DNA of 64,000 bases from Methanogenium sp. S4BF. GTDB lineage: Archaea > Halobacteriota > Methanomicrobia > Methanomicrobiales > Methanomicrobiaceae. Each line of letters opens with the position of its first letter. Positions within the stretch are counted from its first letter, which is position 1. Below the pieces are notes generated by a model, which made no database searches, had not been told where the DNA came from, and saw only the letters and a program-made list of their open reading frames with translations. Made by a program: the position numbers and the translations under genes. The stretch is taken from positions 186,001-250,000 of the forward strand of contig NZ_CP091277.1 in NCBI RefSeq assembly GCF_029633965.1. The letters run 5' to 3'. Below are positions 50,135 to 63,466 of this stretch, piece by piece.

Positions 50135-51145
50135 TCAGATAAACAGTCTGAATGCAACCCATCCAATAACAACCATTACAACTGAGTACTTTAGCCCTGC
50201 AACTGCACGCCCTTCACCCATCTGTCCAGCGACAAGACCTGAGAAAAATCCCTGAATTACCGATGCATGGAGGAAGAGCCGCCGGTAAAAGTCCATATCA
50301 ATGGTAGATCCAAATGTTGTGCTGCCACTTCCTGACTGTGACACTGCCTCACCAGCCTGTGCCATTGTCTCGAGGAACGTTCCCGTCATCACCGCGATCA
50401 CGAAGAGGAAGACAAGGTAGGATACGAGCACGATAATAACATAGATGAGCATATTATTGCGTCGTTCTGTTTCGAGATTGACAAATTCAAAACTGTCATT
50501 TGCCGCAGCACGCAGGACTTCACTCACATCGCCGCCCGCACGACTTGCTTTTGCGATGAGATCAACGCTTCTCTGTGCAAGTGGTGTACCTATTCGTTCC
50601 CCAAACTGGTAGATTGCATCGACGAAGGGAATATTCCATGACATCTCTGCATCAAGTTTTTTGACGTACTGGGTCAGGGAGCCATATTCACCTTCTGAAA
50701 CAACGTGAATCGCATTTGGGAGGGTCATCCCGCTTTCATTCATTCCTGCGACGTCCCGGAAGAAGTTTGGCAGTGATATATTTAGATTTCTCATTCTCAT
50801 TGAGTATTTCAGATCCAGTACTGCCAGGGGAACAGTTGCAATCAGCACTGCAAGAAGGAAATAATCATCAACGCCTGTTGTTGCCAGTGCAAGAAACACT
50901 CCATATCTACTCACCTGCAGGATCAGTCCGATAACAAAGACAATTATTGCAACCGGTATTGTGAGGATGAGAATATTGACCGGTTTTTCTGTGAGCATCT
51001 GAATGGGATGACGCATGAATTTGCCCACCCCTTCCTCTGACCGGTGCCGTTCTTCCACCCGTGCAATTATTTCTTCATCTCTCTGAATTTCCGATGGTGC
51101 ATCGAGCGGTTGATTTTCCGTTTTTTTCGTATCAAATATTTTCAT
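50135..51145 (-). CDS. TadC-type membrane protein (T2SF domain), last gene of the hydrogenase/pilus run
   Basis: A 336-residue protein. A charged cytoplasmic N-terminus (1-50) is followed by two helices (about 57-108), the cytoplasmic helical T2SF domain (about 110-225, LPNFFRDVAGMNESGMTLPNAI and ASRAGGDVSEVL) and further helices (about 232-255, 295-336). It should form the membrane platform of a type IV pilus-like machine together with the previous gene. It starts one base after the previous stop. Confidence 0.85.
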   Translation of the reverse strand: MKIFDTKKTENQPLDAPSEIQRDEEIIARVEERHRSEEGVGKFMRHPIQMLTEKPVNILILTIPVAIIVFVIGLILQVSRYGVFLALATTGVDDYFLLAVLIATVPLAVLDLKYSMRMRNLNISLPNFFRDVAGMNESGMTLPNAIHVVSEGEYGSLTQYVKKLDAEMSWNIPFVDAIYQFGERIGTPLAQRSVDLIAKASRAGGDVSEVLRAAANDSFEFVNLETERRNNMLIYVIIVLVSYLVFLFVIAVMTGTFLETMAQAGEAVSQSGSGSTTFGSTIDMDFYRRLFLHASVIQGFFSGLVAGQMGEGRAVAGLKYSVVMVVIGWVAFRLFI

Positions 51146-51146
51146 T

Positions 51147-52070
51147 CTACACCTCCGGGGTCATTGAACTGATGAGAATCACGAACATGATACTGCCCAG
51201 TGGAATTATCGCATAAATTACAGCATACAGAAACAGGGGATCTGTCTCACCACTGATTGTCGACATAATCGACTGAAGGATTATGAGAAAGAGCGTTCCT
51301 GCAACGAGCGCTGTCACATATGACTCTGAAATCAATCCCAGTGTTTCCAGGAATGTTTTCTGCTCAAGACGGTTCTCCCTGGTATATTGTTCTGATTTTG
51401 TACGGAAATATTCCGTCAGGTTACTTCCGGCTGAAATGCTTGCGGAAGCACCCTGCAGGAATTCACGCATTCTGCTGCTCGGTGTATACTGGCCGGCAAT
51501 TCTCAGGGCATCAAGCAGGTCTTTTCCAAATATGTCAATTTCTCGTGCAATATATCGTGCTTCAACAGCACTTTCCCCGTATATTGTGCTCTGTCCCAGC
51601 AGACGGAATACTTCTGCCGGAGTAATTCCTGCTGTTGACATTGCGGTGATGTAATTAATTGCATAGGGAAGTGTTGCATCGATATTTCTTTTTCTCTCCC
51701 CCGCCATTATTCCGGGATATATAAGAAATACTGCGTAGGTAATTCCTCCAAATACAATCAGGCTGATGATCATTACGATTGCTGCACCGAATAATACTTT
51801 TAATGGATTCAGAGCAACGATGAAGTCAGGCACATTCCCATAATATACGATAAGATCAGGAAGATTGAATATATATGTGACAGAGCCAATCAAAATTCCA
51901 AATACCAATCCCACGAGGATAGAGGTTACGTATGCCGTTGCAAGATATGCTTCAAACGGTACAGTCATTCGTGCCCGCATCATATCATTGCGCAAAAAGA
52001 GATAGTCATCCCGTTTTGCCTTCAGACGCTCCCCGAGAAGGTTGAAACAGACCCTTTGATAACTATTCAT
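51147..52070 (-). CDS. TadB-type membrane protein (T2SF domain)
   Basis: About 307 residues. The start at 52070 is chosen because AGGAGTGATC precedes it and it overlaps the ATPase stop by 8 bp. Helices lie at about 39-62 and 83-118; the T2SF domain is at about 125-235 (YAINYITAMSTAGITPAEVF, GSNLTEYF) and helices at about 245-300. Archaeal platform proteins of the FlaJ type are single long chains; here the platform is split in two half-size proteins, as in bacterial TadB/TadC and the archaeal Epd-like pili thought to be their source. Confidence 0.85.
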   Translation of the reverse strand: MNSYQRVCFNLLGERLKAKRDDYLFLRNDMMRARMTVPFEAYLATAYVTSILVGLVFGILIGSVTYIFNLPDLIVYYGNVPDFIVALNPLKVLFGAAIVMIISLIVFGGITYAVFLIYPGIMAGERKRNIDATLPYAINYITAMSTAGITPAEVFRLLGQSTIYGESAVEARYIAREIDIFGKDLLDALRIAGQYTPSSRMREFLQGASASISAGSNLTEYFRTKSEQYTRENRLEQKTFLETLGLISESYVTALVAGTLFLIILQSIMSTISGETDPLFLYAVIYAIIPLGSIMFVILISSMTPEV

Positions 52071-55000
52071 AGAGATCACTCCTGACAAGTTCCATCACTG
52101 TTTCCGGATTGCGGTAATAGGAGAGCAGCACCTTTCCGACTTCCTGGAAGTGACGGATCTTTTTTAAACGCATCCATTCCAGAATTTCCTGGCGCCGTTT
52201 GAGTTCTTCCCGCATACGGGTATCACTCCACCCTTTTCCTTCCATGATATCTTCCAGAATGTAGGATTTTCCGGAGAAACGTATCTCATCCGTGGCCGCA
52301 TTCCATTTGAACACTTCATTGGTGATCAGTTCATTTGTTCGGGGGTCAATATCGAGGATTTCAATGAGTGTTTTATTTCGGCGAATCCTCTGACCGCCAA
52401 ACCGTGCCTGTACCTGAACGCTCACCAGATCAAGGGCACTCAGCATATTCCGGGGTACATCCATGGGAGGGTTTTCAAATCGGTGAACGACACTGGCAAC
52501 AGAATCTGCGTGTGTCGTTGCATAGGTTACGTGACCGGTGCTCATGGCCTGGAAGAGGGTCTGTGCCTCTTTGCCACGCACTTCACCAACGAGGATGTAT
52601 TCGGGGCGCTGACGGAGTGCTGCACGAAGCAGTTCATACATATCAATTGAGCCTTTACCCCCGCTGTCAAACGATTCCCTGGTAATGGAAGGGATCCAGT
52701 TCTTGTGGGGGAGTTTGAGTTCCCTGGTATCTTCAAGTGTGACAATCTTTGCCAGAGGCGGAATAAACAGTGATATTGCATTCAGGGATGTAGTCTTTCC
52801 GGAAGCGGTCCCTCCTGCAAATATACAGGATTTTCCGTTTTCCACAGCGAGCCACAGAAATGCAATAGAAAGTGGGGAATATGTACCCCATTCAATGAGA
52901 TCTGTTGGTGTGATCGGTTCGTCCTTAAATTTACGGATGGTGAATGTTGAACCATGGGCCGTTACTTCATGGCCCAGTGTCATCTGAATACGTGACCCGT
53001 CTGCCATCGTTGCATCAAGCATCGGTTCAGCAATTGAGATGTACTTTCCCGCACGCTGGGCAAGTTTGGTTACAAATGAATCCAGATCATCAGGGCGTGT
53101 ATATGTAAGGTTTGTCTGGATCGATTCATAATTTGAATGGAATACAAATATGGGAGCATTTATTCCATCACAGGAAATATCCTCAATATATTTGTCATGC
53201 ATAATGGCGTCAATACGCCCGTCTCCAATGAAATTTTTTTGAATATGATAGAGGATTTTTTCCCGTGATACCGGGTCAAGTTTTATCCCGTAATCAAAAA
53301 TAATGAGGTCAACCGCCTCTGTCAGGGTAGCACGAGCCCGCTCTTTTGTGAGATCCTTGGTGCTGATGTCCAGTGTCTCAAACAGTCTCTGTGTCAGTTC
53401 CTGCAGCAGTACATTTTCTCCTTCAGAGAGTTCAGGTTCAATCACCGTATAGAGATACTCATGGGTGTTGTGGTCAAAAATGATGCGTATATAGGCGTAT
53501 GGTTCATTTACCGGGTATAATTCGATTTCTTCGATTCCCTCTCCACTGTCATGTGAGAGATCGACGAGGGACCCATGGATGGCGGGGTCATATTCCACAA
53601 CCCTGCCCATAATTTTTCCAAAAATACCCTGACCAAATCTTTTCTTTTTTTGTTCCCTGGCGGTGTCTTCTTCCGGAACATATTCAACCGGTTTTAACTT
53701 TGATAAATCGAGTCTCTCCAGATCACCCTCAGCAATACCATCCAGTGCAGCAAAGATTTCTTTTCGGTTACTCATCTCAAAATTGTGAGCACGGGCTGAT
53801 ACGTGGAATTCCTCGAGATCTAATTCAGCACCACCTGAGAGAATCTGATCTGAAAAGTTTGCTGCCTCTTCTGCACTAATTATTCCGTCTCTCCGTATTT
53901 TTCTCCTACCTGTCAGTTCTGAATGTGAGTCTCTGGTTTCCGGTCTGATTTCAAGTTGTTCTTTGCGGATATTTTTATTTCCTTCACTTGAAATCTCTTC
54001 AATTATCCGTGTAATTCTTGTTGTTGAATTTTGGGGCTGATTTATTCCAGGTGCCGGTTCTGCTTCATCATACACATTCACCAGTTCGTTAATGATATCA
54101 TCCGGTCTCCGCTGGGGTTTTCTCTCAGTGCCGGCTGTTTCTGAATTCTGTATCTCCTGGATGATTGAGCTGAGTTCACCTGCTTTTGATTCATCCGGTT
54201 CACCACCAAAATAATCTGCTTCAGGATACTCCTCTTTCTTATTCAGCAATTCACTGATTATTCCATCAATTTTCTTTTCAGATTCGCTGTCAGGCTTTCC
54301 TGAAGAGTCTTCTCCGACTGAAAAAGTGGTATTCTCCTGAATGTCAGCAATCAGTGAATCAAGATGAGAACTTTTTGCTTCCTCCATGACAGTCGGTATT
54401 TCATCCGGAATATCTTCCGGTGTTTCATTCCGGAGTGAACGGATGAGTGAATTCAGATGTGACGGAGATTCTGGTTCGTTCTTGTCGTCTCCTGAATAAT
54501 CATCCGGGGTATTTTCTACCTGGAATTCTGGTATTTCGGTATCATTCTCCATCTGAGGTGTGAATATCCCCGTATCCCCGGTACTTGTTGTATCATCGGA
54601 TTTCTCTTCACCGGCTTCCGGAATCATTTCTCCTTCTGCCCTCTCAGGTGTGAATGCCCTGGTATCCTGATTGGTGGTTGTATTATCAGATATATCTTCA
54701 CCGGCTTCAGGAATCGAATAATGTTCTGTTAATGTGGCAGCAAAGCCCTCATCTTCTGATTTCAGTTCGTTCGGCGCGATTTTCTGTTCTGGTTTATTGC
54801 TCTGAATTCCGGCAATAATGTCCTTGAGAGTGAATCTTTTTTCTCCCGTTCCAGTGCTGTCGGATAGTTTAGTACCTTGCTGTGCTGTATCTGGTGCTGT
54901 ATCTTTATCGTATCTATCTGGTTTTTCATCCATTTTCCGGATGTCAGCCAGCAGATTTCCAAGAGTTTCATTTGGCCGTGTATAGTCTGAAACGATACTA

Positions 55001-55197
55001 TTCTCGGGTATTTCATCCGGTTTTTCGGTATTTTTTTCTGGATCAGAAACAGTTCCTGCTTCAGTAATTATCTGTATATTTTTATCTTCAGCAGGGTATC
55101 CCGGATCTGTCTTTTCCCCCCCGGATATAGCATCACTGGTTCCTTTTTGTTTATCTCCACGACGCAATCCCCCAAACAATGATTTTTTCTCTTTCAT
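52063..55197 (-). CDS. TadA/GspE-type secretion ATPase with a long disordered N-terminus
   Basis: A 1044-residue protein; the start ATG 55197 has GAGGTTG before it, while a TTG 21 bp upstream has none. Residues about 430-1040 are the type II/IV secretion ATPase: Walker A GGTASGKTT (about 795-803), Asp box with VTLEDTREL, Walker B ILVGEVRG and the His box TTHADS. The first about 420 residues are acidic and disordered and carry eight short hydrophobic motifs and one duplicated segment (listed separately). Relatives usually have about 500-600 residues. It powers assembly of a pilus-like filament or secretion. It overlaps the next gene by 8 bp. Confidence 0.9.
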   Translation of the reverse strand: MKEKKSLFGGLRRGDKQKGTSDAISGGEKTDPGYPAEDKNIQIITEAGTVSDPEKNTEKPDEIPENSIVSDYTRPNETLGNLLADIRKMDEKPDRYDKDTAPDTAQQGTKLSDSTGTGEKRFTLKDIIAGIQSNKPEQKIAPNELKSEDEGFAATLTEHYSIPEAGEDISDNTTTNQDTRAFTPERAEGEMIPEAGEEKSDDTTSTGDTGIFTPQMENDTEIPEFQVENTPDDYSGDDKNEPESPSHLNSLIRSLRNETPEDIPDEIPTVMEEAKSSHLDSLIADIQENTTFSVGEDSSGKPDSESEKKIDGIISELLNKKEEYPEADYFGGEPDESKAGELSSIIQEIQNSETAGTERKPQRRPDDIINELVNVYDEAEPAPGINQPQNSTTRITRIIEEISSEGNKNIRKEQLEIRPETRDSHSELTGRRKIRRDGIISAEEAANFSDQILSGGAELDLEEFHVSARAHNFEMSNRKEIFAALDGIAEGDLERLDLSKLKPVEYVPEEDTAREQKKKRFGQGIFGKIMGRVVEYDPAIHGSLVDLSHDSGEGIEEIELYPVNEPYAYIRIIFDHNTHEYLYTVIEPELSEGENVLLQELTQRLFETLDISTKDLTKERARATLTEAVDLIIFDYGIKLDPVSREKILYHIQKNFIGDGRIDAIMHDKYIEDISCDGINAPIFVFHSNYESIQTNLTYTRPDDLDSFVTKLAQRAGKYISIAEPMLDATMADGSRIQMTLGHEVTAHGSTFTIRKFKDEPITPTDLIEWGTYSPLSIAFLWLAVENGKSCIFAGGTASGKTTSLNAISLFIPPLAKIVTLEDTRELKLPHKNWIPSITRESFDSGGKGSIDMYELLRAALRQRPEYILVGEVRGKEAQTLFQAMSTGHVTYATTHADSVASVVHRFENPPMDVPRNMLSALDLVSVQVQARFGGQRIRRNKTLIEILDIDPRTNELITNEVFKWNAATDEIRFSGKSYILEDIMEGKGWSDTRMREELKRRQEILEWMRLKKIRHFQEVGKVLLSYYRNPETVMELVRSDLYE
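53977..54969 (-). repeat. Eight short hydrophobic motifs spaced through the disordered arm of the secretion ATPase
   Basis: Counted from ATG 55197, motifs lie near residues 77-91, 122-136, 246-261, 277-291, 308-323, 340-354, 364-378 and 393-407. Cores read LGNLLADI, LKDIIAGI, LNSLIRSL, LDSLIADI, IDGIISEL, LSSIIQEI, PDDIINEL and ITRIIEEI: hydrophobic, two polar, two hydrophobic, two polar, hydrophobic. Between them the chain is acidic and low in hydrophobics. Seven fit the pattern fully; the seventh in order has Pro in the first place. Confidence 0.75.
54556..54714 (-). repeat. Imperfect tandem duplication in the ATPase arm
   Basis: Two 69-bp units (54646-54714 and 54556-54624) encode IPEAGEDISDNTTTNQDT... 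and IPEAGEEKSDDTTSTGDT..., both ending FTP; 15 of 23 residues match. Both the DNA and the protein copies are recognisably related. Confidence 0.75.
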
Positions 55198-55207
55198 CTC
55201 TTCAACC

Positions 55208-55819
55208 TCAAATCTCAATTACGGTATCAATCCGTTCATCGTTGAACTCAATCCTGTATTTGTGAACAACGCCTGCCCTGTCCACAATAATGCAGTCGTA
55301 GATGCCATGGATGAGTCTAAATGTCACTATTCCGTCTGGCCCGGTGACTTCACTCAGAAGAAGCTGCCTGCCTTTTCGCATGGAAACTCTTGCACCGGCA
55401 AGTGGTTTATCTTCTGATATCAGGCGGAGTCTGATTACACCCCTCCCTTTTTTTTGTTCACCAATTTCCGGAATGGTATCCAGATGGCTGCTCTGGATAT
55501 GCCCCTTGTCATATATTCTGCACCCTGCAGCCACCGATTCTGCAATTAATTTCTCACTCAGATACATTTTGAATTTTAAATATTTGTCGAGCAAATAAAC
55601 TGCTTTGTCACCATAAAGATTCCCATCTGTTCCCAGAATGGCTGCACCTTCGACAGCCCCATCGACAAAAATTAATAAATACTGCTCTTTTCCCCCAATG
55701 GATACCCCAAGTCCGGATCGTCCGGACGCTTTCATTTTTTTAATGAGGTCTTCTGAATCATACTCCCCGGCATACTTGGCGTTTTCAACCACATTTCTTA
55801 TGTCGTTTTCAATATCCAT
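55208..55819 (-). CDS. Two-domain protein: PATAN/DUF4388-like N-terminus and Ig-like C-terminus
   Basis: A 203-residue protein without signal peptide. The N-terminal half (about 1-110) resembles PATAN/DUF4388-type domains found with signalling proteins (GKEQYLLIFVDGAVEGAAIL). The C-terminal half (about 125-203) is a carboxypeptidase-regulatory-like beta-sandwich (LAGARVSMRKGRQLLLSEV, TGPDGIVTFRL). It is intracellular by prediction, which is unusual for such an Ig-like domain. It lies between the Roadblock-type genes and the secretion ATPase, 10 bp from the latter's start. No function is known. Confidence 0.7.
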   Translation of the reverse strand: MDIENDIRNVVENAKYAGEYDSEDLIKKMKASGRSGLGVSIGGKEQYLLIFVDGAVEGAAILGTDGNLYGDKAVYLLDKYLKFKMYLSEKLIAESVAAGCRIYDKGHIQSSHLDTIPEIGEQKKGRGVIRLRLISEDKPLAGARVSMRKGRQLLLSEVTGPDGIVTFRLIHGIYDCIIVDRAGVVHKYRIEFNDERIDTVIEI

Positions 55820-55851
55820 CTTCTCTCACCATCCCCCTCATCATGGTTATT

Positions 55852-56520
55852 TCACTGTTTCTGCACTCCTTTTATTGCGAGGCGGATCAGGCCAAGATTT
55901 GCATCTGTTGAGGTTAGCACCACCAGATACAGATCCTCAAACGGTGCAAGAATGCATTTACCCTGTGGTGTTTCAAGAATTATCTGTTCAAGCAGACCAA
56001 TTCCAAGGTCAGCTGATATTTTTGCACCTGCGCGAAGGAGATCTTCAGCGATGGCTGCAGCATGTTCAAAATCACCGTCTCCCCTTGAATTGATGGGAAA
56101 CCCTTCAAAAAATGATGAAACGGCAATTACCCCGGGTTGCCGCAGAATCCTCTCCAGTTTCTCTTCTTCTGAAAGTGTTGTTACCTCTTCAGCCGGAAGG
56201 GACTTATGATCGACAAGCCATTTTTTTCGGATTGAATAGGTAATTACCTCCCTGAGTTCTGATTCATCATAGGAGGAGACCGAATATTCGAAAAACGGCT
56301 GTCCTCTAAGGAAAATTATTGCGTCATTTCCTCTCAGTTCCATTCCATTCTCATTATATTGGGCAATTGCAGGAATTCCCTTCTCTATGAGGAGGTATCC
56401 CTCTCCATTTGATCCCAGGACTGAAACTCCGGCGATTATTTGTCCGGTGAACTCTATCAGTTCTTTAAAGGGACCTTTGAGTTTTGCAACCTGCCTGCCT
56501 TCCGGAAGCATTTTTATCAC
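55852..56520 (-). CDS. PATAN-like plus Roadblock/LC7 domain protein
   Basis: A 222-residue protein. The N-terminal half (about 1-95) resembles that of the next gene (FTGQIIAGVSVLGSNGEGYLLIEKGIPAIAQY). The C-terminal half (about 120-220) is a Roadblock/LC7 domain (LERILRQPGVIAVSSFFEGFPI, then LGIGLLEQIILETPQGKCIL and LVVLTSTDANLGLIRLAI). LC7 proteins form dimers and regulate small GTPases or bind motors. Its ATG overlaps the upstream LC7 stop (ATGA). Confidence 0.8.
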   Translation of the reverse strand: MIKMLPEGRQVAKLKGPFKELIEFTGQIIAGVSVLGSNGEGYLLIEKGIPAIAQYNENGMELRGNDAIIFLRGQPFFEYSVSSYDESELREVITYSIRKKWLVDHKSLPAEEVTTLSEEEKLERILRQPGVIAVSSFFEGFPINSRGDGDFEHAAAIAEDLLRAGAKISADLGIGLLEQIILETPQGKCILAPFEDLYLVVLTSTDANLGLIRLAIKGVQKQ

Positions 56521-56864
56521 AGTGCAGCAATAATTCGTTCACGGTTTTTCTTTAGTTCATACCGAATTCTTCCAATATTCACGTCTTTTTCCGCGACAAT
56601 CGCAATGAGTTCATCATCAGAGAGCGGTGAAAGGAGAATAGGTCCGTTCTCACACTCCACAAGCATCTGGATCATCTCTCCCTGACCCAGTTCAGCACCC
56701 ATGGCTTCAGAGGTTCCCATTCCGGTCGATGCCATTGCGCCAAGTGCTTCAGTGTCAATATTTCCTTTCTCTGCACTCTCGATCACAAATCCGTCTCTTC
56801 CGACAACAACCGATGCTGTAATTCCATCCAGTCTGAGGAATTCCATTAATATTGATTTAAGCAT
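56517..56864 (-). CDS. Roadblock/LC7 domain protein
   Basis: A 115-residue single-domain Roadblock/LC7 protein: LDGITASVVVGRDGFVIESA, then a helix, then QMLVECENGPILLSPLSDDELIAIVAEKDVNIGRIRYEL. The start at 56864 is chosen because it overlaps the hydrogenase large-subunit stop by 8 bp, as in coupled genes; a longer frame reaches 56990 inside that gene. In bacteria, proteins like MglB of this fold act as GTPase activators for polarity switches. No GTPase gene is in the operon. Confidence 0.85.
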   Translation of the reverse strand: MLKSILMEFLRLDGITASVVVGRDGFVIESAEKGNIDTEALGAMASTGMGTSEAMGAELGQGEMIQMLVECENGPILLSPLSDDELIAIVAEKDVNIGRIRYELKKNRERIIAAL

Positions 56865-58275
56865 CTTCAACACCAATTCCGTTTTTCTGATTATTTGGCT
56901 TAAGATTTTCTTTTTTGGGCAAAATGGTGAATTTAACCGGCATTTTTCCAATTGCATGGGTCGCACAGGAGATACAGGGATCATAGGCACGGATTACCAT
57001 CTCAATCTGATTTTTACCGCTGTCTGAAATTTTCCCCTCGGAAACAACTTTTCGTGCAACATTTTCGACACCCCTGTCCATTGCCCAGTTATTCTGGCAT
57101 GTTGCAACAATCAGATTACATTTTTCTATAAATCCCTCATCATTGACGGTATAGTCATGGACGAGTGTTCCACGGGGTGCTTCGATAATTCCAACACCCC
57201 GGTTGCTGATCACACTATCCACCTCTGTCCGGACATCAGCTGATGTAATTGAAGGGTTGCTAAGAATTTCTACTGCACGTTCACAGGATGCGAGGAATTC
57301 AATATAGCGTGCCGGGTTGTATGCCAGTGTTGTCTGGACGTGTCGCCCGAATTTATTTCTGTACTCCTCGAGAGCCGCATCTGCCGCTGGTGTCCCCATT
57401 GAATCAACAATATTCAAACGTGCAAGAGGACCAACACGGTAAAAACGTCCATCTTTCAGACGGGAAAATTTGAGATATGACCAGTCTTCTGAATACTCTT
57501 CGATGAGATTGGCATATCCCTCTCCGGTAAATGAAGCAATCGGGGAGCCACCGGCGTCAATGACTTTTGTCGAACCGCCCATTACTGAATATCTGCCATT
57601 CTCTGCAGAACCCATGAATGCTGTCTCAACAGCCCCGAAAGAGAGGTCTGTTTTATCCAGAATATCCCGTGCAAGACCCCAGCAGTCTTCAGCTATCGTC
57701 CGTGCTTCTTCTGCCATTTCAAGCAGTTCATGTCTCTGTATTTCTGTAATGGGGTGTGACATTCCGCCTGGAATGGCAGATGATGGGTGAATTGGTTTTC
57801 CCCCAATAGCTTCTGTCAGGCGCTGGCCAAATTTTCGGACTTTTATTGCATTTTTTGCTATTTGTGGCTCTTTCTTTACCAGGCTCAGGATGTTTCTCTC
57901 CTCTGGAGGCACCTCATGACCAATGAGAAAGTCAGGGGCTGCCAGCATAAAAAAATGCAGGGAATGTGAGTGTACATACTGCCCGTACATCAGCAATTCC
58001 CGAAGTTTTTTTGCGGTATCCGGGATCTGGGCACCAAAGATCTGATCACATGCCATCGCTGATGCTACATGATGAGAAGTCGGACATATTCCGCAGATAC
58101 GTGGGGTTATTCTTGGAGCTTCCTCAACCGCTGCACCAATCATGAACTTTTCAAATCCCCGAAGTTCGACCACATTGAAATGTGCACTTTCAACTCCCCC
58201 ACTGCCATCGAGATCAATGCGCACTTCTGCATGGCCTTCAATACGGGTGACCGGACTGATATTTATCCGGGTCAT
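56857..58275 (-). CDS. [NiFe] hydrogenase large subunit, Mvh/Frh-like (group 3)
   Basis: A 472-residue catalytic subunit. Motifs are RIEGH (11-15), RICGICPTSHH with Cys61 and Cys64, and DPCISCATH with Cys434 and Cys437. All four nickel-iron ligands are present. A 32-residue tail follows His440, so maturation by the endopeptidase is expected. Closest in form to MvhA/FrhA of methanogens. No FrhB-type F420 subunit and no MvhD or heterodisulfide reductase gene is adjacent. Its start overlaps the small-subunit stop by 4 bp, and the Roadblock gene starts inside its last codons. Confidence 0.93.
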   Translation of the reverse strand: MTRINISPVTRIEGHAEVRIDLDGSGGVESAHFNVVELRGFEKFMIGAAVEEAPRITPRICGICPTSHHVASAMACDQIFGAQIPDTAKKLRELLMYGQYVHSHSLHFFMLAAPDFLIGHEVPPEERNILSLVKKEPQIAKNAIKVRKFGQRLTEAIGGKPIHPSSAIPGGMSHPITEIQRHELLEMAEEARTIAEDCWGLARDILDKTDLSFGAVETAFMGSAENGRYSVMGGSTKVIDAGGSPIASFTGEGYANLIEEYSEDWSYLKFSRLKDGRFYRVGPLARLNIVDSMGTPAADAALEEYRNKFGRHVQTTLAYNPARYIEFLASCERAVEILSNPSITSADVRTEVDSVISNRGVGIIEAPRGTLVHDYTVNDEGFIEKCNLIVATCQNNWAMDRGVENVARKVVSEGKISDSGKNQIEMVIRAYDPCISCATHAIGKMPVKFTILPKKENLKPNNQKNGIGVEDA

Positions 58276-59192
58276 CTGTTCCCCTCCTGGGATATGACTT
58301 CACGGATTTTCGAGATCTCTTTATCCTCCATAACCTCGCTTCCCATGGTAAACGCATACATTGTATGTCCAACGTCGTAGAGTTCTTTTTGAATCTCTTT
58401 TTCAGAAATGTCTGTCAGATCAGCAATTCTTCTGACCATCAGATTATATATGTCCCTGCATGGCTCTCTAAGAATGTCAAGAGATGGCCCGTTGCATCCG
58501 TGGCAGGGCACATTATTTTTGGGGCATGAAGCATTACATCCACAGAATGTTACCGGGCCGAGACAGAGATAGCCCTGACCCAGAAGGCAAGTATCCCTTT
58601 CGGGAATTCCAACATGGCGACGTTTAAGTGACCAGTTCTTAACTTCACCCATTTTACGGTCGCATTCTGAGCAGACCGATTTTCTGGACAGAGATATTTT
58701 ATCTCCCTTGATCAGCGGAAGGATGATCTCTTTTAGCCGTGCCTCTTTTGGGGGGCATCCCGGAATATAGTAATCAATTTTTACCATATCTCCAACGGCA
58801 AAAACACGGTATAGGAATTCCGGCACGTCATGCGGTATTATGCCCCCATCTTTGACAGTATCAACAGCAGTATATACTTTTTTAAACAGGTCTTCTCTGC
58901 TGCTCATCATGGAAAGCCCTGATATCCCTCCATAACATGCACAGGTGCCAAGTGCTACAAGCACCCGGGAATTCTTCCGTATTTTTTTCAGGCGCTCCTG
59001 ATTTTCTTCATTGCGCACTGCTCCTGTTACAAAAGCAATGTCAATATCTTCAGGAGGTTCTTTCACGTCCATTATTACGGGGGAATATACAATATCTGCG
59101 GCTTCAACCAGATCCAGGATTGCTTCATGGAGGTCAAGGACAGCAATTGTGCAGCCGGAACAACCAGCCAGTTCTTCTATTGCAATCTTCAT
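58272..59192 (-). CDS. [NiFe] hydrogenase small subunit, MvhG-like
   Basis: A 306-residue electron-transfer subunit without Tat signal, so cytoplasmic. Proximal-cluster Cys are in CSGC (11, 14), GTCACYGG (84, 86) and PGCPPKEA (146). Further Cys follow at 174, 177, 202, 210, 217, 219, 223, 230 and 233 for medial and distal clusters. Length matches MvhG rather than the shorter FrhG. It lies 12 bp after the V4R gene and overlaps the large-subunit start by 4 bp. Confidence 0.92.
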   Translation of the reverse strand: MKIAIEELAGCSGCTIAVLDLHEAILDLVEAADIVYSPVIMDVKEPPEDIDIAFVTGAVRNEENQERLKKIRKNSRVLVALGTCACYGGISGLSMMSSREDLFKKVYTAVDTVKDGGIIPHDVPEFLYRVFAVGDMVKIDYYIPGCPPKEARLKEIILPLIKGDKISLSRKSVCSECDRKMGEVKNWSLKRRHVGIPERDTCLLGQGYLCLGPVTFCGCNASCPKNNVPCHGCNGPSLDILREPCRDIYNLMVRRIADLTDISEKEIQKELYDVGHTMYAFTMGSEVMEDKEISKIREVISQEGNR

Positions 59193-59204
59193 CTATTTCC
59201 TCCA

Positions 59205-59768
59205 TTATTTCAGGATCAGTTTTTTGAGGCAGGCATTTGGTCCGGTGTGAATTATTTCCAGTTTGCCTCGTTTTCCGGTGATTTCTTCAACAGCACCAAC
59301 GACATACCCGCACAGTGTCTGACAGAAGGGTCCTCCCTGTTCCTCCCCTATCCGTCTTAGTGTCTGACGGACAATGCAGTCATGAAATACCAGATATATG
59401 AAAGTGCCGCTTTCATCTTCCACGATGTAGTCGCTTTTATCGCCAGGCTTCCATGGTTCGAAGGAATACTGTCCATGCAGAATATATGAGAGTTCACGGA
59501 GCGCATCTTCCACATCATCCTTTTTCTCAAAATACTTCGCGACTTCGTGTCCGAATTTTTTACCCGCCCGGTATGTAACAGCATTTGCTCCCCTGCCGGC
59601 AATCTCCTCCAGAGATTTAATAATATAGCCGTTCATCTGCATGAGGCCATGCAGAGTGACTTCAAATTCTGCTGCAGGTGGGTCACACCTCAATGGCACA
59701 TCTTCGGCTTTAAAAACGAGATCTGTTTTGAACTGCTTTTTTGCTTCGTCTATGTAGCTTGCAGGCAC
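59205..59768 (-). CDS. V4R (4-vinyl-reductase-type) domain protein
   Basis: About 187 residues. The GTG at 59768 is chosen as start because GGTGAT lies six bases upstream; a TTG at 59798 lies inside the ferredoxin gene. The V4R core is recognisable: YRAGKKFGHEVAKYF, then HDCIVRQTL and the Cys-containing EEQGGPFCQTLCGYVVGAVEEITG. V4R domains bind small molecules or zinc in regulators and enzyme-associated proteins. Here it sits between ferredoxin and hydrogenase subunit genes. Its ligand is unknown. Confidence 0.8.
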   Translation of the reverse strand: MPASYIDEAKKQFKTDLVFKAEDVPLRCDPPAAEFEVTLHGLMQMNGYIIKSLEEIAGRGANAVTYRAGKKFGHEVAKYFEKKDDVEDALRELSYILHGQYSFEPWKPGDKSDYIVEDESGTFIYLVFHDCIVRQTLRRIGEEQGGPFCQTLCGYVVGAVEEITGKRGKLEIIHTGPNACLKKLILK

Positions 59769-59770
59769 TA

Positions 59771-60016
59771 TTAAATCACCTTCCGAAGCATGGTGCAAAC
59801 CTTCATACTGATGTACATTCTTCGTGATGGCACAGCCCCTTTGTGCTCAAGAGCCTGAGCAGGGCAGATTTCATGGCATGAAAGGCACCCCATACAGTTT
59901 TCCGGATGGGCCGGATAACTAACGCAATTTTGTAATTGAAGTACTTCCATTGGGCAGTCTTTAACGCAAAGGCCACAACCGACGCAGGCATCTTCGTCAA
60001 CCTTGATTTCTATCAT
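59771..60016 (-). CDS. 2[4Fe-4S] ferredoxin, first gene of the hydrogenase/pilus operon
   Basis: An 81-residue protein with two CxxCxxCxxxCP clusters: CVGCGLCVKDCP and CMGCLSCHEICP. It could carry electrons to or from the hydrogenase encoded three genes further. It is followed, with no room between, by the V4R gene, and starts the ten-gene leftward run. Confidence 0.92.
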   Translation of the reverse strand: MIEIKVDEDACVGCGLCVKDCPMEVLQLQNCVSYPAHPENCMGCLSCHEICPAQALEHKGAVPSRRMYISMKVCTMLRKVI

Positions 60017-60290: not shown

Positions 60291-61109
60291 ATGGCGAAAC
60301 AACTTATGATTATGATATATCAGGCACTTGTTCTTTCATCAGCGGCTATCGCGCTTACTCTTCTGTATGCATCAGTGCTGGATCTGCGTGAACGAAGGGT
60401 CCCTTTTAAAACATGGTATCCGATGCTTTTTATTGCAATTCCTATGGCAGTGCTTACGTATATTGAATTGTTCACTGATTCTGTACGGTTTGCATCTGGT
60501 CTTTTTATGCTGTCAGTGATGCTCTGCATATTCTATTATGCCGGGTCAGCGTATCTGCATCTTTTTGGAGGTGCGGATGCATGGGCGATGATTTTCATTA
60601 CTGCATGTGTACCGCTTTTTCCCGTTGAGCCGTATGCTGGTTACCCGATCATCGCGTTTTTTCCTCTCTCTGTAATTCTGAATGCAGTTCTTCTGAACCT
60701 TATAACACCTCTGGGTATATTTGCCGTTAACTGCCTTCGCAGACATCATGGGCCCCTTCGGTACATGTTTGTAGGGTTTCCGGTGGATGGGAATACCATT
60801 CAGGATGAATTCGGATTTGTGATGGAGGAATTTACTGAAGATGAAGATGGTATGGTGACGCGCAGATACCTTTCGTTCACTGAAGCGATTCGCAGAATGA
60901 TTCGTGGGGAGCGAAGGCTTTATACAAGGGATTTCAAACGAAATCCAGAGGAGTACAAAGAAGAGCTGAGACTGTACAGAAAAGCAGGGACTGTGTGGAT
61001 ATCCTATGGTGTTCCATTCATCCTTCCCATATGTGCAGGTTTTATCTCTGCGATATTTATTGGTGATATTATGACAATACTCATACAGGTACTATCCGGA
61101 GCTATCTGA
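60291..61109 (+). CDS. Archaeal prepilin/preflagellin peptidase (A24 aspartic protease)
   Basis: A 272-residue membrane protein. The two catalytic Asp are in LDLRERRVP (Asp31) and the archaeal GxHyD motif GGADAW (Asp96), each next to a membrane helix. Further helices follow (about 105-155), then a cytoplasmic loop (about 165-240) and a last helix. It cuts class III signal peptides of pilins or archaellins. It is divergent from the operon carrying the TadA/TadB/TadC-like genes, which it may serve. The loop is longer than in minimal FlaK, more like EppA. Confidence 0.88.
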   Translation: MAKQLMIMIYQALVLSSAAIALTLLYASVLDLRERRVPFKTWYPMLFIAIPMAVLTYIELFTDSVRFASGLFMLSVMLCIFYYAGSAYLHLFGGADAWAMIFITACVPLFPVEPYAGYPIIAFFPLSVILNAVLLNLITPLGIFAVNCLRRHHGPLRYMFVGFPVDGNTIQDEFGFVMEEFTEDEDGMVTRRYLSFTEAIRRMIRGERRLYTRDFKRNPEEYKEELRLYRKAGTVWISYGVPFILPICAGFISAIFIGDIMTILIQVLSGAI

Positions 61110-61507: not shown

Positions 61508-63466
61508 ATGATATTGGTACCCGATACAAGCGTCGTAATAGACGGACGCATCACCTCCATGATACGGGAGGGAGAATATAACGGTTCTACAATAATAATA
61601 CCGGAAGCTGTTGTGGCTGAACTTGAATCACAGGCAAATCAGGGAAGGGAAATAGGATTTAGTGGATTAATTGAACTCCAGCAACTTTCAGATATGGCTG
61701 GTGAAGGAATAATTGAATTGCAGTATGTGGGTAAACGCCCTAGTCTGGAACAGGTGAAACTGGCAAGCGGTGGAGAGATTGATGCACTCATTCGCAATGT
61801 TGCACTGGAATATGAAGATGTTCAGTTTATCACCAGTGATATCGTGCAGGCAGAGGTGGCAAAGGCGAAAGGTCTGGATGTTCTCTATCTTAAACCACAG
61901 GTAGGGGAATTTTCACCACTGAGTATTGACCAGTTTTTCGATGAAACAACAATATCTGTCCATCTGAAAGAACGGGTTAAACCTACCGCACGGAAAGGAA
62001 CTATCGAGCGTTCAGAGATAGTGTCACTTCGTGAAGCACCTCTTTCTGAGTATGAACTTCGGCAGATGGCTCAGGAGATACTTGAGCGGGCCAAACGCGA
62101 TCCAGATGGATTTATTGAAGTTGAACGAAAGGGAGTGACCGTTGTTCAGATCGGTTCGATGAGAATTGCGATTGTGCGGCGGCCATTTTCTGATGGAATG
62201 GAAATAACTGCATTCAGACCGGTTCTCAGAGAGCAGTATAACCCGAATCTGCTTTCTTCTGAGATAAAAAAGCGTCTTGAACACAAATCCTCCGGCATTC
62301 TTATTGCAGGTCCTCCCGGATCCGGAAAAACTACGCTGGCTCAGACTATTGTGTCTTACCTTCTTGAATCCGGACATCAGGTATGTACAATGGAGAATCC
62401 CCGTGATCTTCAGGTACCTGATTCAGTCACACAGTTTTCCGCACTTGATGGAAGCATGAAGAAGACCGGGGAGGTGCTTATACTCATACGGCCGGATCAT
62501 GTTATATTTGATGAAATTCGAGTGGAGGAGGATTTTCAGGCATATGCAGATATGCGCCTTGCAGGAGTCGGTGCCATTGGGGTTGTCCATTCCCAGACCC
62601 CCTGCGATGCCCTGCAGCGGTTTGTTAACAGGGTTGATTTCAGTACCACAGCAAATGCAGTCGATACCCTGATCTTCGTTGATGAAAAAGCGAATATTTC
62701 TGTTTACGGAATGAATCTGGTTGTTGGAAAGCCAACAGGAATGCAGGATCTTTCTCACAATTCTCCAATAATCCGACTTTCACGCTGCACAGATGGTGTT
62801 TCCATATGTGATGTGTTCTGCTATGAAGGGCAGGTAATTGTTTTGCCTGCAGAGATACATGAAGTGACCACTGTTTCTCCACCTAAAAAAGAACACCCTG
62901 CTGTAAAGGAGATGCCAAATAGCGCTCCGGAGGAGAAAGGGGGAGTGATGCCGGAAGAGGAAAATCTTGCGTGGAAGTTGTCAGGACGTGAAATAAAGCA
63001 GGAAATTGGTCGTTTTACCGATGGACCCATCGAAGTAAAAATGATTTCTGATAATAAGGCTGTTGTTTATATCGATGACAGGGATGTGCCGGCTGCAATT
63101 GGGAAAGGGGGTAAGAATGTTGCAGGCATTGTCAATAAACTGAGTATTGGTATCGATATTAAGCCGCTTTCTGAATTCGGACCGGTAACTGATGAAGTTT
63201 CCGAGGAAGGAAGGCCATCAGGAGAAGGTCTTGCTTCGAATGGCCAGTCAATTGACCTTAATGTCGACAAAAAGAATCTTACCGTGAGATCCCCGGAAAA
63301 CAGCGGAAGAATCGTTGATGTATTTGGTGGAAAAGAATACCTTTTCACAGCAACGGTGAATGATAATGGTGAAATTATCATCTCAAAGACCAGTGGAATT
63401 GCACAGGACATGCTGCGCCGGTATAAGGAGGGTGAGTCAATTCGCCTTAAGCCGGTAGGAAACTAA
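61508..63466 (+). CDS. PIN domain / PilT-type ATPase / KH domain protein
   Basis: A 652-residue protein. The N-terminal PIN nuclease-fold domain has VPDTSVVIDGRI with conserved Asp (about 3-120). The P-loop ATPase of the PilT/VirB11 type has GPPGSGKTT (about 265-273) and VIFDEIRVEEDF. A KH-like RNA-binding segment follows (about 530-555, AIGKGGKNVAGIVNKLSI), then a short C-terminal beta domain. Despite the PilT label, this archaeal family is linked to RNA through the PIN and KH parts, not to pili. GGTGAT precedes the ATG. Confidence 0.9.
   Translation: MILVPDTSVVIDGRITSMIREGEYNGSTIIIPEAVVAELESQANQGREIGFSGLIELQQLSDMAGEGIIELQYVGKRPSLEQVKLASGGEIDALIRNVALEYEDVQFITSDIVQAEVAKAKGLDVLYLKPQVGEFSPLSIDQFFDETTISVHLKERVKPTARKGTIERSEIVSLREAPLSEYELRQMAQEILERAKRDPDGFIEVERKGVTVVQIGSMRIAIVRRPFSDGMEITAFRPVLREQYNPNLLSSEIKKRLEHKSSGILIAGPPGSGKTTLAQTIVSYLLESGHQVCTMENPRDLQVPDSVTQFSALDGSMKKTGEVLILIRPDHVIFDEIRVEEDFQAYADMRLAGVGAIGVVHSQTPCDALQRFVNRVDFSTTANAVDTLIFVDEKANISVYGMNLVVGKPTGMQDLSHNSPIIRLSRCTDGVSICDVFCYEGQVIVLPAEIHEVTTVSPPKKEHPAVKEMPNSAPEEKGGVMPEEENLAWKLSGREIKQEIGRFTDGPIEVKMISDNKAVVYIDDRDVPAAIGKGGKNVAGIVNKLSIGIDIKPLSEFGPVTDEVSEEGRPSGEGLASNGQSIDLNVDKKNLTVRSPENSGRIVDVFGGKEYLFTATVNDNGEIIISKTSGIAQDMLRRYKEGESIRLKPVGN

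Follow-up and report, generated by a model that had tools for sequence, protein, structure and literature searches.

A conserved hydrogenase, V4R-fold, and roadblock gene module with recurrent links to a type IV pilus locus in Methanomicrobiales

We analyzed a 64,000-nucleotide stretch of the Methanogenium sp. S4BF genome (NZ_CP091277.1, positions 186,001 to 250,000; here called the window), in which ten genes on the minus strand encode a ferredoxin, a V4R-fold protein, a [NiFe]-hydrogenase, two roadblock/LC7 proteins, and the ATPase and platform of a type IV pilus. This array is not a product of chance, because 78 genomes share its hydrogenase-LC7 part and 27 show the linkage of hydrogenase and pilus genes. 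The genomic association is strong, and from it we infer a function: the locus may be a hydrogenase-based redox or H2 signaling module feeding a roadblock/MinD-controlled type IV pilus, a reading to which we give about even chances. That the module itself is real is close to certain.

RESULTS

Ten genes in a single array

All ten open reading frames (ORFs), running from 60016 to 50135 on the minus strand, were confirmed in the order given by the original prediction, as were the overlaps and short gaps between them. The nine junctions from fdx to TadC (-28, +12, -4, -8, -4, +32, -11, -26, and +1 bp) are all overlaps or gaps of 32 bp or less, and the ten genes are likely to form a single transcription unit. 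The array and the divergent gene that abuts it upstream are as follows:

59771-60016, minus strand: fdx, gene 1, dedicated 2[4Fe-4S] ferredoxin (Pfam Fer4_7, 1.9e-13)
59205-59798, minus strand: V4R, V4R/TRAPP/H-NOX-fold sensor-like protein (predicted fold; invariant C141, C159, H184, and C190)
58272-59192, minus strand: hydS, [NiFe]-hydrogenase small subunit with an MvhG-type Fe-S cysteine pattern (VhuG profile, 247 bits)
56857-58275, minus strand: hydL, [NiFe]-hydrogenase large subunit with RICGIC, DPCISCATH, and a C-terminal extension (VhuA profile, 395 bits)
56517-56864, minus strand: LC7a, one roadblock/LC7 domain (PF03259, 1.1e-16, 60.7 bits; cut-off, 23)
55852-56520, minus strand: LC7b, N-terminal domain plus C-terminal roadblock/LC7 domain (PF03259, 8.8e-6, 25.8 bits; cut-off, 23)
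55208-55819, minus strand: p7, N-terminal alpha/beta domain plus C-terminal transthyretin/CnaB-like domain (by fold)
52063-55218, minus strand: pilus-type secretion ATPase (FlaI/PilB type) with an N-terminal tail of about 550 residues (PF00437, 8.1e-32)
51147-52088, minus strand: TadB-like platform membrane protein (T2SSF; PF00482, 1.6e-15)
50135-51145, minus strand: TadC-like platform membrane protein, last gene (T2SSF; PF00482, 6.6e-15)
60291-61109, plus strand: prepilin peptidase (PF06847, 4.5e-24; PF01478, 3.7e-9)

The start adopted for LC7a is 56864, an upstream GTG not being used. The prepilin peptidase had been left out of the original prediction, along with three recurrent companions of the module: MinD, a PATAN-like protein (ptX), and a membrane roadblock-like protein (tmX).

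A six-gene core conserved across the order

Orthologs of hydL (63 to 91% identity) were found in 78 of the 199 genomes of Methanomicrobiales, in single copy save for split fragments, and the other 121 had no match. The genes fdx-V4R-hydS-hydL-LC7a-LC7b were contiguous in all 40 mapped loci, two of which end at contig ends (L040 starts within hydS and L074 stops within p7), and fdx was the first core gene in the mapped loci of f1 to f4, contig-end loci aside. Here, f1 to f6 are family labels, which for unlisted genomes in the linkage count are default assignments that may be slightly inaccurate. In all 75 genomes where it could be assessed, hydL lay no more than 2.5 kb from LC7a. LC7b is also conserved as a neighbor of LC7a. 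LC7a, 70 to 98% identical across the order, is more conserved than the hydrogenase (median identity, 80% versus 67%). The same module was present in one Methanofollis and two Methanoculleus records among the matches listed in a genome scan; we take f4 to be Methanoculleus. As predicted, hydrogenase, V4R, LC7, and pilus genes make up one conserved array in several genera, but the fixed unit comprises the ferredoxin, V4R, hydrogenase, and LC7 genes without the pilus part; a strict ten-gene operon was ruled out, as f4 and some f1 genomes have the pilus genes unlinked. Four loci showed a further, divergent pair of LC7a-LC7b genes (37 to 45% identical to LC7a) between the prepilin peptidase gene and fdx (L039, 1310-2748; L041; L043; L074).

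Two natural deletions, both in metagenome-assembled genomes (MAGs) or draft assemblies, indicate that the hydrogenase block is removable and that LC7 outlasts its loss. In G079, which belongs to the genus of the window, 2.87 kb are gone from about codon 23 of fdx to about codon 393 of hydL on an N-free contig. LC7a (94%), LC7b, p7, the ATPase gene, and TadB are intact, and the genome has no other hydL. What is left is an in-frame ORF of 96 codons (L075, 10275-10565), in which the first 20 or so codons of fdx are fused to the last 77 or so of hydL and the stop still overlaps the start of LC7a. The second genome, G071, carries feoB-ptX-tmX-LC7a-LC7b-nadC and is missing the HycI, MinD, fdx, V4R, hydS, and hydL genes that its genus mates carry within this run.

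LC7a stands with both the hydrogenase and the pilus

An ortholog of the pilus ATPase was present in 189 of 198 genomes. In 27 genomes of f1 to f3, no more than 10 kb separates it from the hydrogenase, and p7-ATPase-TadB-TadC follows the core; these are all assessable genomes of f2 and f3 (one broken contig excepted) and the f1 genera g1, g5, g7, and g8. In f4 and the f1 genera g2, g3, g4, and g6, the ATPase gene is far from the hydrogenase, the pilus genes lying 0.9 to 1.6 Mb off or on separate contigs. There, LC7a-LC7b, usually also with MinD, tmX, and ptX, stay with the hydrogenase (MinD adjoins fdx in f4 and in some of f1), and p7-ATPase-TadBC remains beside the prepilin peptidase gene, which keeps the same place in the pilus loci of f1 to f6. 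In f5, where the hydrogenase is absent, LC7a-LC7b stand directly before the same ATPase-TadB-TadC genes, with MinD, tmX, and ptX divergent alongside, and in all 44 assessable genomes the distance from LC7a to the ATPase gene is under 5 kb.

LC7a is thus the hinge between the hydrogenase and pilus loci. As it is common to both partners, a functional link is evidenced more strongly than by adjacency in one clade. Routine separation of hydrogenase and pilus genes among relatives, which would speak against the predicted link, makes up half of the picture (f4 and part of f1), and it is offset by the bridge that LC7a-LC7b form between the two loci.

MinD, ptX, and tmX recur beside the module on either the hydrogenase or the pilus side and are near it in most relatives. 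In the window genome, a single contig of 2.51 Mb (G000), MinD-tmX-ptX lie 45 kb from the operon (L254, 7477-10152; G000:C1, about 288 to 290.7 kb). Close to this cluster are RNA polymerase-like genes, and an LC7-like match comes right after ptX. A PIN/PilT-type ATPase with a C-terminal KH-like part (PINATPase; window, 61508-63466) keeps its synteny with the prepilin peptidase gene in almost every pilus locus.

These associations could also be read in the reverse direction, with LC7, MinD, and PATAN proteins placing or assembling the hydrogenase, for example at a pole or the pilus base, so that the pilus system organizes H2 uptake. Positioning is a typical task of MinD and roadblock proteins, and MinD is the neighbor of fdx in f4 and some f1 genomes. 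However, LC7a, LC7b, and MinD stay with the pilus where there is no hydrogenase, and a sensor-fold protein with a ferredoxin is better suited to an input module; we consider this direction of control rather unlikely.

The hydrogenase is distinct from MvhA

The Fe-S and NiFe ligands of hydL and hydS are intact, with RICGIC and DPCxxC motifs and a three-cluster small subunit as in MvhAGD, and the enzyme is very probably catalytic. In a tree with MvhA from solved structures and from Methanocella itself, the large subunits linked to V4R, whether from the order or from Methanocella, formed one clade (99/96) apart from MvhA; an FrhA outgroup was unusable because its branch was too long. Joining the hydL of the order with the MvhA of Methanocella was rejected (approximately unbiased test, p = 0.003). 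Sequences from f10 joined the V4R-linked clade with 87/87 support, and those from f9 took a position without resolution.

The gene for MvhD is single copy in almost every genome irrespective of hydL, and in G000 the two genes are about 1.25 Mb apart; a family search of the array proteins found no MvhD gene in the window array. Methanocella has a separate MvhA besides its V4R-linked hydrogenase. Canonical Mvh was ruled out by this phylogeny and MvhD linkage, and the view of the enzyme as a stray Mvh-type hydrogenase was not borne out, given its separate clade and the lack of an MvhD neighbor. Its role is, with good confidence, other than that of Mvh. Many Methanomicrobiales lack MvhAG, for which FrhAG may substitute (Kaster et al. 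2011, PMC3087415), while MvhADG is listed for Methanoculleus (PMC5684752). By our data, what is listed there is the V4R-linked hydrogenase.

In f4 and some f1 genomes, the gene for the maturation protease HycI adjoins the module, and in G071 it is gone along with the hydrogenase block. The window hydL extends about 32 residues beyond its last His, a C-terminal extension that is absent from the f9 large subunits (L131 and L132), which stop at the final His without a C-terminal maturation peptide.

A metabolic role would make the enzyme either the Mvh of these methanogens, working with MvhD/HdrABC, or a ferredoxin-reducing uptake enzyme, and its adjacency to LC7 and pilus genes an inherited synteny with no function. 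The MvhA/MvhG-like sequence with all ligands, the Methanoculleus annotation, the dedicated ferredoxin gene, and the age of the pilus locus synteny are all compatible with this. Yet MvhD is kept in one copy with or without hydL, Methanocella retains enzymes of both clades, well over half of the genomes of the order gave no hydL match, and the two losses spare LC7. The recurrence of LC7 and V4R beside such hydrogenases in Archaeoglobi-like archaea and a bacterium, described below, argues against it as well. We regard a purely metabolic hydrogenase as unlikely; signaling is the probable role.

The V4R-fold protein, p7, and the pilus ATPase

The V4R assignment of the original prediction was upheld by fold and not by Pfam. 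The window copy had no significant Pfam match, the V4R profile gave none in 18 close members, and one f9 member scored 0.0088, under the cut-off. The structural model (predicted local distance difference test score of about 77 to 94 in the folded core) matched the phenol-sensor domains of MopR (Foldseek E value, 4.7e-6; probability, 1.00), PoxR, and DmpR, as well as TRAPPC3/Bet3, H-NOX, and MJ1460. Eleven residues were invariant in 27 sequences, including a bacterial one: C141, R144, Q145, Q154, C159, G164, H184, G186, N188, C190, and K192. The set of three Cys and one His may hold a metal or an Fe-S cluster that receives electrons from the ferredoxin.

Alternatively, the V4R protein could sense another ligand or metal, with the hydrogenase as its effector activated upon pilus-mediated contact. 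Phenols or acyl chains are the ligands of V4R-family relatives, as the matches to MopR, PoxR, and TRAPPC3 indicate, and zinc binding also occurs among them. The V4R gene is, however, encoded between fdx and hydS in the mapped f1 to f4 loci and was lost together with them, and its invariant Cys/His set suits a metal or Fe-S site. This alternative seems improbable to us.

The p7 protein, found alongside the pilus ATPase, had been predicted as a PATAN-Ig protein; Pfam gave no match, and its C-terminal half is transthyretin/CnaB-like by fold. The ATPase scored 415.6 bits against a FlaI-like profile, for which the archaellum cut-off is 550, and the platform proteins were far under the FlaJ profile cut-offs, which ruled out an archaellum operon. 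The parts of an archaeal type IV pilus are present, i.e., secretion ATPase, TadC-type platform, and prepilin peptidase; no pilin gene was seen in the array, where a class III signal-peptide scan was not made. The hydrogenase and pilus might instead be one conduit for extracellular electron transfer in syntrophic exchange, as an electron-transfer enzyme is physically linked to pilus genes. The array lacks a multiheme cytochrome as well as a pilin, though, and the hydrogenase and ferredoxin, without a signal peptide by eye, appear cytoplasmic; we give this conduit very little credence.

The disordered-looking N-terminal tail of the ATPase (53780-55218) contains seven copies of a hydrophobic motif, [LI]xx[LIM][LIM]xx[LIMF], against 0.2 expected in shuffles (for example, LGNLLADI, LKDIIAGI, and LDSLIADI), the pattern having been picked by eye and being patchy among relatives. 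Similar copies occur in an insertion of LC7b in L054, whose ATPase tail is without them. The motif may be a multivalent docking site. That it tracks the presence of LC7 or hydrogenase was not supported, given its patchy occurrence.

The module outside Methanomicrobiales

A V4R profile was run over 393 genomes of the phylum. Four f14 genomes, two of which are probably Methanocella arvoryzae and M. paludicola, have fdx-V4R-hydS-hydL-LC7a-LC7b-PATAN-like-(ORF)-MinD in a single run. In two f10 genomes, presumably of anaerobic methanotroph (ANME)-1 type judging from their class, fdx-V4R-hydS-hydL is followed directly by a pilus ATPase gene (51 to 52% identical) and TadB. This is a second hydrogenase-pilus association, differently ordered; a wide spread of the module in the f10 class was ruled out, as the profile matched these two genomes only. 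Three f9 genomes, which appear to be Archaeoglobi-like, have V4R-hydS-fdx-hydL with LC7a nearby and, in one of them, MinD nearby. Two f9 loci (L131 and L132) have a second, shorter V4R-like ORF ahead of the main V4R gene.

Among the matches listed in the genome scan, V4R and LC7 accompanied 1 of 77 other group-3 hydrogenase loci, in a Nitrospiraceae MAG, and the 76 without them ruled out the pair as a general trait of this group. The bacterial locus (L220, 2277-5803) reads LC7 (partly N)-V4R-hydS-hydL-ferredoxin, and genes resembling those of radical-SAM enzymes and histidine kinases come after it. By this distribution, the module appears to be old: it occurs in Methanomicrobiales and Methanocella as well as in Archaeoglobi-like and ANME-1-like archaea, and it has a bacterial relative in at least one case.

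DISCUSSION

In the mechanism we propose, H2 would be oxidized by HydLS, and the electrons would pass via the HydS clusters to the dedicated ferredoxin, steps that follow from known NiFe hydrogenase chemistry. Through the ferredoxin, the V4R-fold protein would change its redox or metal state and may then alter its contact with the LC7a/LC7b roadblock complex. Together with tmX, ptX, and MinD, LC7a/b would control how active the pilus ATPase-TadBC machine is or where it is placed, either directly or via p7, and the physiological output could be, for instance, that cells attach to H2-producing partners or move toward them. We infer the electron-transfer and protein-contact steps, the direction of control, and this output, the later steps being drawn from linkage, fold, and deletions. 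Whether the pilus is the output is, in our estimate, evenly balanced. The original idea that H2 is wired to the pilus through the LC7 and V4R proteins remains the best reading of the comparative data, which do not tell assembly from retraction or attachment from syntrophy.

Several observations weigh against such a signaling route to the pilus. About half of the hydrogenase-bearing genomes show no link to the pilus ATPase, and the Methanocella module has no pilus ATPase gene adjacent to it. The pilus locus is syntenic order-wide, with ppep, hisI, pinA, and cobQ also kept, so that the 27 linked genomes are not independent counts and may stem from one arrangement. As the ATPase is present in nearly all genomes, the hydrogenase is dispensable for the pilus. 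The f10 loci sit on short MAG contigs, and the ferredoxin could supply metabolism instead.

We found no described system joining these parts in the open-licence literature searched, while every part belongs to a known family. Roadblock proteins are tied to type IV pilus activity in the MglA/MglB system of Myxococcus, where MglB is the roadblock protein with a role in pilus control; at our locus, in contrast, no MglA-like GTPase was identified, and the input is a hydrogenase. MvhAGD of group 3c (HdrABC-MvhAGD) shares its subunit architecture, Fe-S ligands, and L1/L2 motifs with HydLS, but the latter has no MvhD or polyferredoxin gene adjoining, is linked to V4R, LC7, and MinD, and coexists with MvhA in Methanocella as a separate clade. 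The H2-sensing regulatory hydrogenase (HoxBC/HupUV, group 2b) lacks the C-terminal extension (PMC8229454), as do the f9 copies, and has the sensor role proposed here. It differs in that HydLS is group-3-like in sequence, the window copy has the extension, and no PAS-histidine-kinase partner, a trait of the regulatory hydrogenase, occurs in the array or the mapped cores; its output is a two-component system, whereas the output proposed here is roadblock/MinD/pilus. In Haloferax, the MinD ATPases MinD2 and MinD4 act in the placement of the motility machinery, namely archaella and chemosensory arrays (PMC11588486), but at the pilus locus described here MinD recurs next to genes for roadblock and PATAN-like proteins and for the hydrogenase. 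A 2016 census of archaeal type IV pili noted roadblock arCOG02603 in various pilus loci (PMC4858521), whereas its main text has no word starting with "hydrogen" and no V4R.

The module bears on the question of how hydrogenotrophic methanogens locate their H2-producing partners and stay attached to them; to our knowledge, no H2 sensor has been described in these organisms. The module is a named, testable candidate for such a sensor in culturable genera, with natural deletion strains to serve as controls. By our data, the Methanoculleus "MvhAG" used in electron bifurcation models is this different hydrogenase, and the annotation is to be corrected. Tentatively, and at somewhat less than even chances, the locus may represent a new, kinase-free class of H2 sensing, in which a NiFe hydrogenase acts through ferredoxin, V4R, and roadblock/MinD proteins on the activity or position of type IV pili. 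If true, this would be a further way for a redox enzyme to act on a surface machine, one that needs no kinase. The module suggests that H2 may help control attachment or movement in many methane-making archaea.

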